Origin: Sphaerisporangium perillae
Lineage (GTDB): Bacteria; Actinomycetota; Actinomycetes; Streptosporangiales; Streptosporangiaceae
Reading direction: 5' to 3'
DNA length: 64,000 nucleotides
NCBI RefSeq assembly: GCF_023276435.1
Contig: NZ_JALLPO010000012.1
Location: forward strand, 62,001-126,000
This document shows positions 41,974-48,061 of the stretch, in pieces. How positions within the stretch are numbered: the stretch's first letter is position 1; every line of letters starts with the position of its first letter. Position numbers and translations under genes: made by a program. The notes beneath the pieces were generated by a model. The model was not told the DNA's origin, did no database searches, and was given only the letters and a program-made list of their open reading frames with translations.

Positions 41974-42215
41974 GAAACGACTGTATCGGGCACATCATTA
42001 CTCGACCAGTGGCTCTCCAGGATTCCTTGACCGGCGAGCGCCCCACCTGCCCGTCCGTCCCATCAGTTCACCTGGTGTGATCCTCCACGTTCCCAGGCCG
42101 GCGGCGGAACGCCGCACGCTTCCAGCGGCGTGTCGCCGCTTCCCCGACGCGCCGGGGCCCGGCCGTGCTCACCCTCCTTCCTCCTGAAGGCGGCCTCACC
42201 TCGCATAATCGGGAG

Positions 42216-42863
42216 ATGCGCGACCATAAGGGGAGCCCGGAGTCGGCCCAGACCCTGGAACGAGGGCTGCGGCTGCTCCGCCTGCTCGCCGACGGGCATC
42301 GCGGGCGCACACCCACCGAGCTGGCGCAGGAGCTCGGGCTGAGCCGCCCGATCGTCTACCGGCTCCTGACGACATTGCAGAACGAAGGGTTCGCGCGGCG
42401 GGACGCCGAAGGGCGGGCCCATCTCGGCTTCGGCGTCCTCGCGCTGGCCCGCGCCGTCCAGCCGCTGCTCCGGGCGGCCGCGCTGCCGGCGCTGCGCCGC
42501 CTGGCCGAGGACACCGGGGCGACCGCCCACCTGACCGCGGCCGAGGGCGACGAGGGGCTGGCCATCGCCGTCGTCGAACCGACGTGGACCGACATGCACG
42601 TGGCCTACCGGGAGGGCTCGCGCCATCCGCTGTCGCGCGGAGCCGCGGGGCTGGCGATCCTGGCGCTGCGCGAGGGCCGTACGGAGTACATGGTCACCGA
42701 GGGACAGCTCCAGGAGGGGGCGCGCGGCGTCGCGGCTCCGCTGCCGGGGCTGCCGTGGCTGGAGGCCTCCGTGGGCATCGTGACGTTCGGCCCGATCGAC
42801 GCCGCCACCCTCGGCCCCCGCGTGGTCGCCGCCGCCGTCGAACTGGGCGGGGCCCTGACGTAG
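42216..42863 (+). CDS. IclR-family transcriptional regulator
   Basis: About 215 residues. The winged helix reads QTLERGLRLLRLLADGHRGRTPTELAQELGLSRPIVYRLLTTLQNEGFARRD, and a shortened effector domain follows (LPALRRLAEDTGATAHLTAAEGDEGLAIAVVEP...GSRHPLSRGAAGLAIL). It lies just before hmgA and the fumarylacetoacetase on the same strand, as homogentisate-pathway IclR regulators often do. A 36-bp dyad before hmgA is its probable site. The ATG at 42216 is preceded by GGGAG at close spacing. Confidence 0.83.
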   Translation: MRDHKGSPESAQTLERGLRLLRLLADGHRGRTPTELAQELGLSRPIVYRLLTTLQNEGFARRDAEGRAHLGFGVLALARAVQPLLRAAALPALRRLAEDTGATAHLTAAEGDEGLAIAVVEPTWTDMHVAYREGSRHPLSRGAAGLAILALREGRTEYMVTEGQLQEGARGVAAPLPGLPWLEASVGIVTFGPIDAATLGPRVVAAAVELGGALT

Positions 42864-43024: not shown

Positions 43025-43060
43025 GTACGTATAGAGGACATCATTGTCCGATATGCGTAC
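43025..43060. promoter_or_regulatory. 36-bp dyad operator before hmgA
   Basis: Outer arms GTACGTAT (43025-43032) and ATGCGTAC (43053-43060) pair with one mismatch, and inner arms GGAC (43036-43039) and GTCC (43046-43049) pair perfectly about the same centre. It lies 14 bases before the hmgA start, fitting an IclR-type repressor site. Confidence 0.6.
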
Positions 43061-43073
43061 ACCGGGAGGGGCG

Positions 43074-44249
43074 ATGCCGCACTACCGCACCGTCGGCGAG
43101 GTGCCGCGCAAACGGCATATCCAGTTCCGCAAGCCCGATGGCGGGCTGTACTCCGAGGAACTGATGGGCGAGGAGGGCTTCTCCTCCGACTCCTCGCTGC
43201 TGTACCACCGGCACCTGCCCACCGCGATAGTCAAGGCGGAGGCGGTGCCCGACATCGTGCGCGCCACCCTGTCGCCGAACCTCCCCCTCTCGCCGCGCCA
43301 CTTCCGCACCCAGGGGCTCCCGGTGGGCGGCGACCTGGTCACCGGGCGGCAGCCGCTGGCCGGCAACGCCGATGTCCGCATGTCGTACGCCGCCGCCGAC
43401 CGGCCGAGCGAGCTGTACCGCGACTCCAAGGGCGACGAGTGCGTCTACATCGCGAGCGGCCGGGTGCGCTTCGAGTCCACCTACGGCGCGATCGAGGCCG
43501 GCGAGGGCGACTACGTGGTGGTCCCCACCGGGACGATCCACCGCTGGGTGCCGCTGGACGGCACGACGGTGCGCGCGCTGACCATCGAGGCCGCCGGGCA
43601 CATCCGCCCACCGAAGCGCTACCTGTCGCAGTACGGCCAGTTCCTGGAGCACGCCCCGTACTCCGAGCGCGACCTGCGCGCTCCGGACGAGCCGCTGATC
43701 GTCGAGGAGTCCGAGACGCCCGTCCTGGTCAGGACCCGGGGCGGCCTGACGCGGCTGACCTACGCCCATCATCCGTTCGACGTGGTCGGCTGGGACGGCT
43801 GCCTCTACCCGTACGCCTTCGACATCAACGACTTCGAGCCGGTCGTGAAGCGCACCCACGCGCCGCCACCGGTCCACCAGACCTTCGAGGGGCCGGGCTT
43901 CGTCATCTGCTCGTTCTGCCCCCGGCCGCTGGACTTCCACCCCGAAGCCGTGCCGATCCCCTACAACCACCACAACGTCGACTCCGACGAGTTCATGTTC
44001 TACGCCGGCGGCGACTACACGGCGCGTAAGGGCTCGGGCATCGACGTCGGGTCCATCTCCCTGCACCCCGCCGGCTTCACGCACGGTCCCCAGCCCGGGG
44101 CGGTGGAGGCGGCCGTCGAGGCCGTGCGGCGGGGCACCACCGTCACCAGCGAGCTCGCCGTGATGATCGACACCTTCCGCCCGCTCGACCTCGGCGACGC
44201 CGCGCTGTCCTGTGAGGACCCGTCCTACGCATGGACGTGGGCCCGATGA
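43074..44249 (+). CDS. hmgA: homogentisate 1,2-dioxygenase-family protein
   Basis: About 391 residues with a double cupin fold. The late block IPYNHHNVDSDEFMFYAGG supplies the iron ligands (His, Glu) and SISLHPAGFTHGPQPG the last His. Early blocks HFRTQGLPVGGDLVTGRQPL and DECVYIASGRVRFESTYGAIEAGEGDYVVVPTGTIHRW also fit the family. It opens the ring of homogentisate to maleylacetoacetate in tyrosine and phenylalanine breakdown. The ATG at 43074 follows GGGAGGGGCG. It is coupled by ATGA overlap to the fumarylacetoacetase gene. A maleylacetoacetate isomerase gene is not present here. Confidence 0.87.
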   Translation: MPHYRTVGEVPRKRHIQFRKPDGGLYSEELMGEEGFSSDSSLLYHRHLPTAIVKAEAVPDIVRATLSPNLPLSPRHFRTQGLPVGGDLVTGRQPLAGNADVRMSYAAADRPSELYRDSKGDECVYIASGRVRFESTYGAIEAGEGDYVVVPTGTIHRWVPLDGTTVRALTIEAAGHIRPPKRYLSQYGQFLEHAPYSERDLRAPDEPLIVEESETPVLVRTRGGLTRLTYAHHPFDVVGWDGCLYPYAFDINDFEPVVKRTHAPPPVHQTFEGPGFVICSFCPRPLDFHPEAVPIPYNHHNVDSDEFMFYAGGDYTARKGSGIDVGSISLHPAGFTHGPQPGAVEAAVEAVRRGTTVTSELAVMIDTFRPLDLGDAALSCEDPSYAWTWAR

Positions 44250-46339
44250 CCGGACACGTCGTGGGCACCGAGACCACCACCCCCCGTACGGCCGACGAGG
44301 AGATCGCGGTGAGCACGCTCTTCCGGTCCCTGGTCGACGACGCCGGCCTGTTCCCGCCCACGCTGCTGCCCATGTCGAGGGCGCTGGCCCGCCATTACGC
44401 CGACGAGGACGCCGGCAACCCCGTGCTCACGCACCGCCTCGTCTGCCCGGCCAGCCGCCTGGACGAGCTGCGCGCCTCCCTGACCCGTCCCGTCCGGGTG
44501 GGGGTCATCGTCGACACGCCCCTGTCACCGGAACTCCTCGGACTGACGTCCTGCGACCCGAGCGTGGAGGTCGAACTGGTCGAGGCGCCCCTCCCGCCCG
44601 ACGCCACCGTCGTCGACGTGGCGGAACGGCTCGGGCCGGCCCGCTCGCGGGCGCGGCTGTTCGTCGAGGTCTCGCCCACCGACCTGCACCATGTTCCGCA
44701 CGACGTGGGGCTGAAGGTCCGCTGCGGAGGGCTCAACCCCGAGGACTTCCCCTCCACGCACGAGCTCGGGGCCTTCATCCGCAACTGCGTCGAGCAGGGC
44801 ACGCCGTTCAAGGCCACCGCCGGCCTGCACCGCGCCGTCCGCCACCCCGACCCCAGCCTCGGCGTCTACCGGCACGGGTTCCTCAACCTGGTACTGGCCG
44901 TGTGCGCGGCCGTCCAGGGCCGCGACCCGGTCCCCGTGCTGGACGGCATGGACGAGGACGAGCTGGTCGCGATGGCGCGTGCCATGCCCGAGGAGGTGGC
45001 GCGGCGCGCGAGGGAGCTGTTCGTCTCCTACGGCTCCTGCAACACCAGCACTCCCATCGAGGAACTGCGGGCGCTCGGGCTCGCCGAACGGCGCCCCCGC
45101 CGCGAGACGCCCGTCGTAGTCAGAGAGGAGATCGTGATCCGCAGCTGGGTGCCCGGGGCGGACGCGAGCCCCTACACGGTGGCCAACCTCCCCTACGGCG
45201 TGTTCTCCCGCCCAGGTGAGCCCCCGAGGGCCGGGGTGCGCATCGGCGACCACGTCCTCGACCTCGCACCCGTGCTGCACGACGAGATGTTCGCCACCGG
45301 CAGCCTCAACGGCTTCCTCGCCAGAGGGCGCACCGCGTGGCGGGACACCCGGCGGCTGCTCCAGCGGCTGCTGTCCGCGGACGCCAAGGAGGCCGCGGCC
45401 AACCGGGCGGCGCTCCAACCACACCTGATCCCGCTCCGCCAGGTGCGGCTCCACCTGCCGATCGAGATCGGCGACTACGTCGACTTCTACTGCTCGCTGG
45501 AGCACGCCACCAACCTCGGCCGCATGTTCCGGCCCGGCGACGAGCCCCTCAAGCCCAACTGGCGGCATCTCCCGGTCGGGTACCACGGCCGTTCCGGCAC
45601 CGTCGTGGTCTCCGGCACGCCGGTCACCCGTCCCCGGGGTCAGCGCGCCTCGGCCTCCGGCGGCGAGCCCGTCCTCGGGCCGTCGGTCAGGCTCGACATC
45701 GAGGCCGAGCTGGGGTTCGTCGTCGGCACGCCGACCCGTCTCGGTGAGAGCGCGGGCGACTTCGCCGACCACGTCTTCGGGGTGACGCTGGTCAACGACT
45801 GGAGCGCCCGTGACATCCAGGCCTGGGAGTACGTCCCGCTCGGGCCGTTCCTCGGCAAGTCGTTCGCCACGTCGATCTCCCCCTGGATCACGCCGCTGGA
45901 GGCCCTTTCCGACGCCCGCCTGCCGGGGCGCGCGCAGGACCCCGAGCCGATGGACTACCTGCGCAGGCGGGAACCCTGGGGGCTCGACATCAGCCTGGAG
46001 ATCACGTTGAACGGCGAGCCGATCTCCACCCCGCCGTACCGCGACATGTACTGGACGCCGGACCAGATGCTCGCCCACATGACCGTCAACGGCGCCTCCC
46101 TGCGCACAGGCGACCTGTTCGCCAGCGGCACCGTCTCCGGCGCCGATCCGTCGCAGCGGGGATCACTCATCGAGATGAGTTGGAACGGCGCCGAGCCGGT
46201 CAAGCTGTCCGACGGACAGTCCCGTTCCTTCCTCGAGGACGGCGACACCGTGACGATCACCGCGACGGCGCCGGGACCGAACGACACCCGCATCGCGCTG
46301 GGCGAGGTGACGGGCACGGTCCTTCCCACCCCGAGCTGA
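44246..46339 (+). CDS. fahA: fumarylacetoacetase fused to an extra N-terminal domain
   Basis: About 697 residues, far above the usual 400-420. Residues about 297-697 are a full fumarylacetoacetase: SWVPGADASPYTVANLPYGVF, HATNLGRMFRPG, LPVGYHGRSGTVVVSGTP, IEAELGFVVG, VNDWSARDIQAWEYVPLGPFLGKSFA and SGTVSGADP. It hydrolyses fumarylacetoacetate to fumarate and acetoacetate, the last step of homogentisate breakdown. Residues 1-295 form an extra domain (STLFRSLVDDAGLFPPTLLP, GLKVRCGGLNPEDFPS, PFKATAGLHRAVRH) of unknown role, possibly a TIM-barrel. A GTG at 45134 behind AGAGAGGAG could start the enzyme alone. Start at ATG 44246, overlapping hmgA. Confidence 0.85.
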   Translation: MTGHVVGTETTTPRTADEEIAVSTLFRSLVDDAGLFPPTLLPMSRALARHYADEDAGNPVLTHRLVCPASRLDELRASLTRPVRVGVIVDTPLSPELLGLTSCDPSVEVELVEAPLPPDATVVDVAERLGPARSRARLFVEVSPTDLHHVPHDVGLKVRCGGLNPEDFPSTHELGAFIRNCVEQGTPFKATAGLHRAVRHPDPSLGVYRHGFLNLVLAVCAAVQGRDPVPVLDGMDEDELVAMARAMPEEVARRARELFVSYGSCNTSTPIEELRALGLAERRPRRETPVVVREEIVIRSWVPGADASPYTVANLPYGVFSRPGEPPRAGVRIGDHVLDLAPVLHDEMFATGSLNGFLARGRTAWRDTRRLLQRLLSADAKEAAANRAALQPHLIPLRQVRLHLPIEIGDYVDFYCSLEHATNLGRMFRPGDEPLKPNWRHLPVGYHGRSGTVVVSGTPVTRPRGQRASASGGEPVLGPSVRLDIEAELGFVVGTPTRLGESAGDFADHVFGVTLVNDWSARDIQAWEYVPLGPFLGKSFATSISPWITPLEALSDARLPGRAQDPEPMDYLRRREPWGLDISLEITLNGEPISTPPYRDMYWTPDQMLAHMTVNGASLRTGDLFASGTVSGADPSQRGSLIEMSWNGAEPVKLSDGQSRSFLEDGDTVTITATAPGPNDTRIALGEVTGTVLPTPS

Positions 46340-46526: not shown

Positions 46527-46958
46527 ATGGACTCATGGATCTTCTGGTTGATAATGGCGGCGGCGCTCGGTGTGGCGGAGATCTTCACGCTCACCGCGGC
46601 GCTCGGGCTCCTCGGTGCCGCCGCGCTGCTGACGGCCGCCGTCGCGGCCATCGGCCTGCCGACCGGCATCCAGCTCGCCGTCTTCATCCTGTCCTCGGTG
46701 TCCGGCCTCGTCCTCATCCGGCCCGTCGCCCAGCGCCACATCAAGCAGCCTCCGGTCCAGCGATTCGGTGTCTCCGCCCTGGTCGGAAGGCCCGCCTACG
46801 TCACCCGTGAGGTCACCGGGCTGAACGGCCGGGTGCGCATCGGCGGGGAAGAGTGGTCGGCCCGCGCCTACGACGAGACGCTGGTGATCCCGGCGGGCGC
46901 GACAGTGGACGTCATCGAAATCGAGGGCGCGACCGCGCTCGTCTATCCCCGGGGGTAA
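46527..46958 (+). CDS. NfeD-family membrane protein
   Basis: 143 residues: two or three membrane helices (FWLIMAAALGVAEIFTLTAALGLLGAAALLTAAVAAIG, GIQLAVFILSSVSGLVLIRPV) and a C-terminal OB-fold domain (SALVGRPAYVTREVTGLNGRVRIGGEEWSARA). Short NfeD proteins work with SPFH proteins in membrane microdomains. Two bases separate it from the SPFH gene, so the pair is one unit. The ATG at 46527 follows GGGAGGG. Confidence 0.87.
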   Translation: MDSWIFWLIMAAALGVAEIFTLTAALGLLGAAALLTAAVAAIGLPTGIQLAVFILSSVSGLVLIRPVAQRHIKQPPVQRFGVSALVGRPAYVTREVTGLNGRVRIGGEEWSARAYDETLVIPAGATVDVIEIEGATALVYPRG

Positions 46959-46960
46959 GC

Positions 46961-48061
46961 ATGGACGCCGCTTTGATCGCCGGAATCCTCATCGTGCTGT
47001 TCGCGGTGTTCACCGTCCTTCGTTCCGTCCGCATCGTCCCGCAGGCCAGAGCCGGCAACGTCGAACGCCTCGGCCGCTACTCGCGCACGCTCGGGCCCGG
47101 GCTCAACTTCGTGATCCCCTTCGTGGACCGCGTCCGGCCGCTCATCGACCTGCGCGAGCAGGTGGTGTCCTTCAAACCGCAGCCGGTCATCACCGAGGAC
47201 AACCTCGTCGTCGACATCGACACGGTGCTGTACTTCCAGGTCACCGACCCGCGCGCGGCGGCGTACGAGATCGCGAACTTCATCCAGGGCGTGGAGCAGC
47301 TCACCGTCACGACGCTGAGGAACGTCGTCGGCGGCATGGACCTGGAGAAGACCCTCACCTCCCGCGACACCATCAACAGCCAGCTGCGCGGAGTGCTCGA
47401 CGAGGCCACCGGCAAGTGGGGCATCCGGGTCAACCGGGTGGAGATCAAGGCGATCGACCCGCCGAGGACGATCAAAGAGGCGATGGAGAAGCAGATGCGC
47501 GCCGAGCGTGACAAGCGCGCCGCCATCCTCACCGCCGAGGGCTTCCGCCAGTCGCAGATCCTCACCGCCGAAGGTGAGAAGCAGAGCGCGATCCTGCGAG
47601 CCGAAGGCGACCGGACCGCGGCCATCCTGAAGGCCGAAGGCCAGTCGCAGGCCATCGACGAGGTGTTCCAGGCCGTCCACCGCAACGACCCCGACCCCCA
47701 GCTGCTCGCCTACCAGTACCTGCAGGTCCTCCCACAGCTCGCACAGGGCCAGGGCAACACCTTCTGGGTCATCCCGAGCGAGGTCACCTCCGCCCTGCAG
47801 GGGGTGTCCAGGGCGTTCACCGAGTCCCTGCCCAGGTCCCCGGCGACCCGGGAGGTCACCGAAGGCAGGAGCGACGCCAAGCAGGAGGCCGTGAAGGCCC
47901 AGGAGGCCGCGGACGCGGCCATCGCCGACGCCGAGGAGTCCGGCCCGCGCCGGCTCGGCCCCGGCACCTCCATCCCCGACCCCCTGACCGGCCTGGACCA
48001 GACCGCTGCCGCCCAGCAGGCCGTCCACGCCCGGAAGGACACCGCCTCCGACGACTCCTGA
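46961..48061 (+). CDS. SPFH/band 7 (stomatin-like) protein
   Basis: About 366 residues. An N-terminal membrane segment (LIAGILIVLFAVFTVL) precedes the band 7 domain (residues about 25-190: VPQARAGNVERLGRYSRTLGPGLNFVIPFVDRV, MDLEKTLTSRDTINSQL, RTIKEAMEKQMRAERDKRAAI), then a helical region with repeated ILTAEG/ILRAEG/ILKAEG units that drives oligomer assembly. The tail is disordered and Ala/Glu-rich. Stomatin-like proteins form membrane rings that hold proteases or transporters, and the NfeD protein upstream is the usual partner. Confidence 0.88.
   Translation: MDAALIAGILIVLFAVFTVLRSVRIVPQARAGNVERLGRYSRTLGPGLNFVIPFVDRVRPLIDLREQVVSFKPQPVITEDNLVVDIDTVLYFQVTDPRAAAYEIANFIQGVEQLTVTTLRNVVGGMDLEKTLTSRDTINSQLRGVLDEATGKWGIRVNRVEIKAIDPPRTIKEAMEKQMRAERDKRAAILTAEGFRQSQILTAEGEKQSAILRAEGDRTAAILKAEGQSQAIDEVFQAVHRNDPDPQLLAYQYLQVLPQLAQGQGNTFWVIPSEVTSALQGVSRAFTESLPRSPATREVTEGRSDAKQEAVKAQEAADAAIADAEESGPRRLGPGTSIPDPLTGLDQTAAAQQAVHARKDTASDDS

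Follow-up and report, generated by a model that had tools for sequence, protein, structure and literature searches.

A bacterial fumarylacetoacetase (FAH) that carries an additional domain raises the question of what that domain contributes to the pathway in which the enzyme acts. Such an arrangement occurs in Sphaerisporangium perillae, within a 64,000-nucleotide stretch of contig NZ_JALLPO010000012.1 (positions 62,001 to 126,000; hereafter the window, in whose own numbering coordinates are given), where a single gene on the plus strand encodes an N-terminal domain, here termed X, joined to FAH. A preliminary description of this DNA had offered two roles for the extra domain, the missing isomerase step of the pathway or a regulatory function. 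Gene context, co-occurrence, the lack of maiA matches over cut-off and residue conservation support the former as a candidate activity, and on these grounds we see an even chance that X is the maleylacetoacetate isomerase, here thiol-free, that these pathways are missing. A purely regulatory role appears unlikely, because X resembles an enzyme barrel with conserved residues at its strand ends. The main interest of the locus lies in the X family as a candidate for an orphan enzyme.

The fused gene (44246..46339) is open from its ATG at 44246 to a TGA ending at 46339 and encodes 697 residues, bearing out the continuous frame of about 697 codons that was originally described as uniting an extra domain with a complete FAH; an in-frame ATG further upstream, at 44231, gives an alternative reading of 702 residues. 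The ATG at 44246 overlaps the TGA of the preceding gene (43044-44249) by four bases. X comprises 260 residues (44300..45079, plus strand) and is followed by a linker of 63 bases (45080..45142), which ranges from 42 to 273 bases across the fused relatives, and by the FAH domain (45143..46336), corresponding to residues 305-700 of the 702-residue reading. The last 400 residues qualify as a complete FahA family member and lie close to solved enzymes: they score 446.9 bits against TIGR01266 (cut-off 375.3), the match spans positions 1-419 of the 420 in the model, indicating a full-length family member, and fumarylacetoacetases in the Protein Data Bank (PDB) match at E about 4e-119. What sets this protein apart from FahA elsewhere is the N-terminal X domain. 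The motifs VDDAGLFPP, LKVRCGG and FKATAGLH, previously noted in the extra domain, are present. No Pfam or NCBIfam family matched X at E up to 1, in keeping with the earlier view that it stands outside the known enzyme families of the pathway. Sequence searches of the PDB with X, and Pfam searches with 21 of its relatives, returned matches at chance level only (single ones in the latter), 13 members found no match in PHROGs, and a scan of viral contigs yielded 79 pattern matches, none of them a relative.

The textbook route of tyrosine breakdown by way of homogentisate proceeds from tyrosine via 4-hydroxyphenylpyruvate, homogentisate, maleylacetoacetate and fumarylacetoacetate to fumarate and acetoacetate, and bacteria lacking glutathione often do not have its known isomerase, MaiA, an enzyme of the glutathione S-transferase (GST) fold. 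Directly upstream of the fused gene lies a short, divergent homogentisate 1,2-dioxygenase (HmgA-like; 43044..44249, plus strand), which exceeds the Pfam cut-offs for HgmA_C and HgmA_N and falls below the TIGR01015 equivalog cut-off (66.5 bits vs 510.75). Aligned to PDB entry 3zds, it places HHNVDSDEF under HRNLMNEF and THGP under AHGP, thereby keeping the His, Glu and His positions that we take to be iron ligands. 4-Hydroxyphenylpyruvate dioxygenase (HPPD) is encoded elsewhere in the same genome (G000 C30; 436 bits, over cut-off), and a profile search of that genome for maiA (TIGR01262) found none. The ring-opening and later steps of the route are thus present in these genomes, the known isomerase excepted.

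Among 296 Actinomycetes genomes that are 90% complete or better, a profile built from 21 X sequences detected the domain in 94. TIGR01266 exceeded its cut-off in 139 of these genomes and reached E up to 1e-80 in 155, the latter set defining FAH presence for the co-occurrence count in place of the curated cut-off. Ninety of the 94 genomes with X fell among the 155 with FAH (p = 5.7e-28, computed ignoring kinship); the remaining four were G049, G413, G344 and G087, the last of which encodes X, HmgA and the start of an FAH at a contig end. At no fewer than 87 of 99 X places, FAH was listed on the same strand after X, with gaps measured between profile-match ends. No maiA match over cut-off was found in any of the 296 genomes, where a single weak match occurred (G304, 61 bits vs 171), or in ten further X genomes, where G221 gave four weak matches; the control for this search is thin, with maiA over cut-off in one of 14 control genomes and some match in three.

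X also extends well beyond this class. It was identified in 24 plasmid records, the 20 listed coming from Streptomyces, Rhodococcus, Pseudonocardia, Tsukamurella, Nonomuraea, Priestia (Bacillota) and Kovacikia (Cyanobacteriota). In 18 of these 20 it is annotated as a hypothetical protein, one further record having no gene listed at that place and another no annotation, and a family so labelled in Actinomycetota and Priestia would gain a function were the isomerase reading true. All six annotated records opened, from Priestia to Rhodococcus, have fahA directly after X; the clusters of five of them also include a gene for a homogentisate dioxygenase or cupin, and those of two include hppD. Both hppD and homogentisate dioxygenase occur in the Priestia and Tsukamurella clusters, where the displayed stretch has no maiA annotation; the gene order in Priestia megaterium is hppD-X-fahA-hisC-hmgA, and in Kovacikia X and FAH adjoin hppD and HmgA. 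A relative at 30% identity was found in a metagenome-assembled genome titled Armatimonadetes (L012). A sample meant for the phylum of that genome had X in 10 of 198 genomes, some rows of which share coordinates with G150 and G094 of the window's class, so that no phylum was taken from it.

The tightest association between X and FAH is seen within Sphaerisporangium itself, where both lie in a single frame in 10 of 11 genomes. One of these ten, S. melleum (L001 5952-7173; G001 C24 61306-63061), has an FAH part frameshifted about 122 residues into FAH, reflecting either a sequencing error or gene decay. That the fusion itself results from a sequencing error was considered and rejected, since the joint frame is shared by these ten genomes, including assemblies of one contig (G009) and two contigs (G008). 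Outside the genus, where X often lies behind a homogentisate dioxygenase gene, X and fahA were separate genes in all 42 distinct pairs of neighbours that the retrieved loci contain (near-identical pairs counted once, the window's copy not being in the set). Taking candidate codons as starts, FAH may begin with a four-base overlap of the X stop in 24 of these 42 pairs and with a one-base overlap in four. Similarly, among 87 pairs in the class survey, compared by eye, equal open-frame length for both parts was found in the window's genome only. The fusion is real and genus-specific, and joins two genes that are adjacent in many bacteria; it probably arose from an X-fahA pair with overlapping stop and start through a small insertion or deletion. 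No prior report of it was found in a literature search covering titles, beginnings of abstracts and passages, most subscription journals being outside its reach.

The eleventh genome of the genus, G003, departs from this pattern (L022 1465-2715, L090 5349-7771). Here HmgA is followed directly by FAH, whose frame begins with a GTG overlapping the HmgA stop (GTGA), at the place where X starts in the others, and continues through a short leader into FAH; no X match was found anywhere else in the genome. Since the overlapping GTG is kept at the usual start of X, with no X elsewhere, the sequence indicates that X was excised from a fused gene. Having lost X naturally, G003 can be set against the fused species.

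The structure of X was modelled from an alignment of 13 sequences using AlphaFold2. The best of five models (m6fbc2049bba1; pLDDT 90.3, pTM 0.89, the others reaching pLDDT 75 to 84) consists of strands and helices alternating around a TIM barrel; the whole 702-residue fusion, folded with no alignment, yielded no usable model (pLDDT 33). Foldseek returned a single row at E up to 0.001, a designed barrel, followed at 1.1e-3 by DeoC (deoxyribose-phosphate aldolase) 3ndo among many TIM barrels. The top VIA-align match was the DeoC aldolase 1n7k (Z 14.1, rmsd 3.2 Å over 194 residues), the top 37 rows all being DeoC-fold entries (Z 12.3-14.1), designed KE70 variants included, with pyridoxine phosphate synthase and pyruvate kinase at Z 11 to 12. 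Descent of X from DeoC, as prompted by the fold, was rejected on profile comparison: hhalign of 21 X against 17 DeoC sequences gave a probability of 0.2% over 17 columns. The gene context also differs from that of DeoC. On the basis of the model, X is best described as a TIM barrel of DeoC-like layout and not as a demonstrated DeoC relative. It likewise differs from MaiA (zeta-class GST, TIGR01262), which performs the step proposed for X, between HmgA and FAH, in that X matches neither TIGR01262 nor any other NCBIfam model up to E 1 and is a barrel by its model.

Conserved residues of X were mapped onto this model using 61 distinct sequences which, like the 81 rows of the FAH tree discussed below, represent whichever loci had been retrieved, many of them for bearing X. 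E123, at the end of strand 5 (44666..44668, plus strand), is invariant (61/61). The KVR of the KVRCGG motif on strand 6 (44714..44722, plus strand) comprises K139 (57/61) and R141 (59/61), and strand 7 carries, within PFKATAGLH, the candidate catalytic lysine K171 (44810..44812, plus strand; 57/61). D13, R141 and N196 are each kept in at least 59 of the 61 sequences and H177 in 58. In the model, D13, E123, K139, R141 and K171 map to strands, and the other conserved residues to loops or helices behind them. Despite only about 25% identity, X of Priestia keeps D13, E123, K139, R141, K171, T173, H177, R181, H192, N196 and C247.

DeoC enzymes have lysines on strands 6 and 7, and K139 and K171 occupy these same two strands in X, which by strand position makes them candidates for a Schiff-base lysine. 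Lysines on two successive strands of a DeoC-like fold would suit a hydrolase or aldolase-type lyase that cleaves maleylacetoacetate directly, to maleate or related acids and acetoacetate, in parallel to FAH, and for some Bacillus a maleylacetoacetate hydrolase is mentioned in one report (PMC4457819), which also weighs against the isomerase reading. We consider direct cleavage improbable, however, given that X is coupled to, and in one genus fused with, an FAH that acts on the fumaryl isomer, when a parallel route would need no FAH alongside, and given that X shows no profile similarity to DeoC.

K171 is present in 50 of the 51 copies of X located next to FAH and in seven of the ten others, L093 being counted among the latter though an FAH start follows at its contig end. 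The copies without it are L091 6007-6870 (G049), L092 5834-6691 (G413), L096 5819-6694 (a second copy in G040) and L042 527-1357 (G020, beside FAH), and all have lost other conserved residues too. Two of these copies reside in genomes without FAH and HmgA, and may have another role or be decaying. An HmgA-like protein was found in 17 of 22 genomes, few in number and chosen after the residues had been seen. A match was absent from G049, G413 and G020 in this search, and in G040 the HmgA-like protein sits beside the other, intact X; G087, G352, G035 and G047 have both an HmgA-like protein and an intact X. HmgA-like matches were also absent from two further genomes, G344, with a weak and partial hit to X, and G069, an FAH genome devoid of X. 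With the K171-less copies confined to genomes in which no HmgA-like match was found or to a spare copy, the barrel site appears to have changed where the presumed substrate is not made. The same pattern bears on a further reading, in which X has no catalysis of its own and serves as a partner to stabilise or regulate FAH. Such a partner would account for the tight neighbourhood and the fusion, yet the residues at the strand ends of the barrel are kept from Priestia to Sphaerisporangium and changed in copies where HmgA was not found, and 65 FAH genomes do without X; we regard this explanation as very improbable.

Taken with the gene context, these features suggest how an isomerase activity of X might operate within a bifunctional enzyme of tyrosine and homogentisate breakdown. 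The upstream HmgA-like dioxygenase would open homogentisate to maleylacetoacetate, X, needing no thiol cofactor, would convert this to fumarylacetoacetate, and the product would be split by the fused FAH into fumarate and acetoacetate. In X, R141 and its neighbours may hold a carboxylate of the substrate and E123 may serve as acid/base, with K171 adding reversibly to the substrate, through an imine/dienamine or by addition to the double bond, and so letting the cis bond rotate. The fusion may pass the labile intermediate directly from one domain to the other.

An activity of this kind has some precedent. Hagedorn and Chapman are said to have described, in J Bacteriol in 1985, a glutathione-independent maleylacetoacetate isomerase activity in relatives of Bacillus megaterium and other Gram-positives, and we know of no gene for it. 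The activity is the one proposed for X, and Priestia megaterium carries X. Our literature search, within the reach stated above, found no gene assigned to glutathione-independent maleylacetoacetate isomerisation. In two reports, the isomerase gene was not identifiable in B. anthracis and B. thuringiensis (PMC4457819, PMC6193087). We judge it nearly, though not quite, an even prospect that X is the long-missing gene for this Gram-positive enzyme, a new TIM-barrel solution in Actinomycetota, Bacillota and Cyanobacteriota, unrelated to the GST and mycothiol types; on this view, its joining to the following enzyme in one genus would spare the labile intermediate from leaving the protein. A conserved, soluble candidate with mutable residues, a natural fusion and a natural loss in G003 make the question directly testable.

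A number of observations weigh against an isomerase role. Of the 155 FAH genomes, 65 lack both X and a maiA over cut-off; some X-less genomes have hppD, hmgA and fahA side by side, and G003 lost X and kept HmgA and FAH within the same genus. In the same two reports, a three-gene hppD-fahA-hmgA operon without a fourth gene is described for B. thuringiensis and B. anthracis (PMC6193087, PMC4457819). On a tree of 81 FAH sequences (L001 being skipped as too short and 17 loci, most of them duplicates, left out), 14 changes are required to explain the label 'X in the locus', five or more of them on well-supported branches, compared with 24.5 for shuffled labels by a quick method; 'no X' here means none in the fetched stretch, and G016, G032, G035 and G047 carry X elsewhere in the genome. 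Clustering of open reading frames from 22 X-less loci (L070-L089, L108, L109), with clusters typed in part only, revealed no replacement isomerase beside FAH; Pfam searches on 20 FAH neighbours gave regulators, a transporter, a lipase, a pirin and others, some without any match and none isomerase-like. K139 and H177 are changed in a copy paired with FAH (L057). Also, one Streptomyces plasmid that carries X has, about 3.3 kb from it, a gene of the maleylpyruvate isomerase type. Three genomes with FAH and no X (G081, G341 and G525; f20 g70) show weak matches to the short HmgA (61-69 bits), and possibly have the classical dioxygenase type with another isomerase solution. The main objection comes from the 65 FAH genomes with neither X nor a maiA match over cut-off, so that another solution for the isomerisation step exists in X-less genomes: either a different isomerase, free thiol or a tolerant FAH performs it there, or X does something else close by.

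The repeated absence of X where HmgA and FAH are kept, including in G003 inside the genus, would also fit a repair or clean-up enzyme, helpful but dispensable, acting on an off-pathway form of the HmgA product or FAH substrate such as a wrong tautomer, a cyclised form or an adduct. Isomerisation would then fall to a mycothiol- or bacillithiol-dependent enzyme, to free thiol or to a tolerant FAH, and a mycothiol-dependent maleylpyruvate isomerase is known for the gentisate route of Corynebacterium, as named in the title of a paper that PMC5815605 cites. That enzyme performs an analogous cis-trans isomerisation in bacteria without glutathione, but X, having no Pfam match at E up to 1, contains no detected domain of its type. 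A repair role by itself leaves unexplained the absence of maiA over cut-off across 296 genomes, and no thiol-dependent isomerase was recognised among the 20 FAH neighbours in X-less loci, though such a gene need not adjoin FAH; we consider a repair role rather unlikely.

The fused frame also raises the possibility of two products from one gene, as envisaged in the preliminary description. The sequence AGAGAGGAG (45122-45130) and the in-frame GTG at 45134 behind it are present as described (45122..45136, plus strand), the GTG following a run of purines. A start at this GTG would yield a 43-kDa FAH alongside the 75-kDa fusion, an arrangement compatible with any role for X. A GTG or ATG six or nine bases before the FAH match is kept in eight of the ten fused species, mostly behind purine-rich sequence; however, G009 and G002 have no start at that place, their only GTG lying further in (+6) or further out, and the codon may simply have been inherited from the separate gene. 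Two products are thus possible in the window and not general in the genus. A working internal start seems somewhat unlikely to us, and the likeliest reading from the sequence is that the GTG is a remnant of the start of an ancestral, separate fahA.

Other features of these loci can be noted more briefly. Upstream of the cluster in the window lies an IclR-type regulator (42165..42863, plus strand; Pfam HTH_IclR 55 bits and IclR_C 34 bits, both over cut-off), a homologue of which was found upstream of HmgA in several relatives. Two open reading frames 3' of the fusion (46527-48061) resemble, by eye, an NfeD-type membrane protein and an SPFH/band-7 protein. The maleylpyruvate isomerase N-terminal domain gene of the Streptomyces plasmid locus L045 (3994-4650) is situated about 3.3 kb before X, and the X-fahA pair of this plasmid has no hmgA in the stretch shown. 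In L095 (1964-4634), whose open-reading-frame clusters recur in L098 (part), L100 and L108, an FAD-binding monooxygenase (PF01494) precedes HmgA, joined at some of these loci by a protein of metallo-beta-lactamase fold, also before HmgA, perhaps representing a second route that feeds homogentisate.

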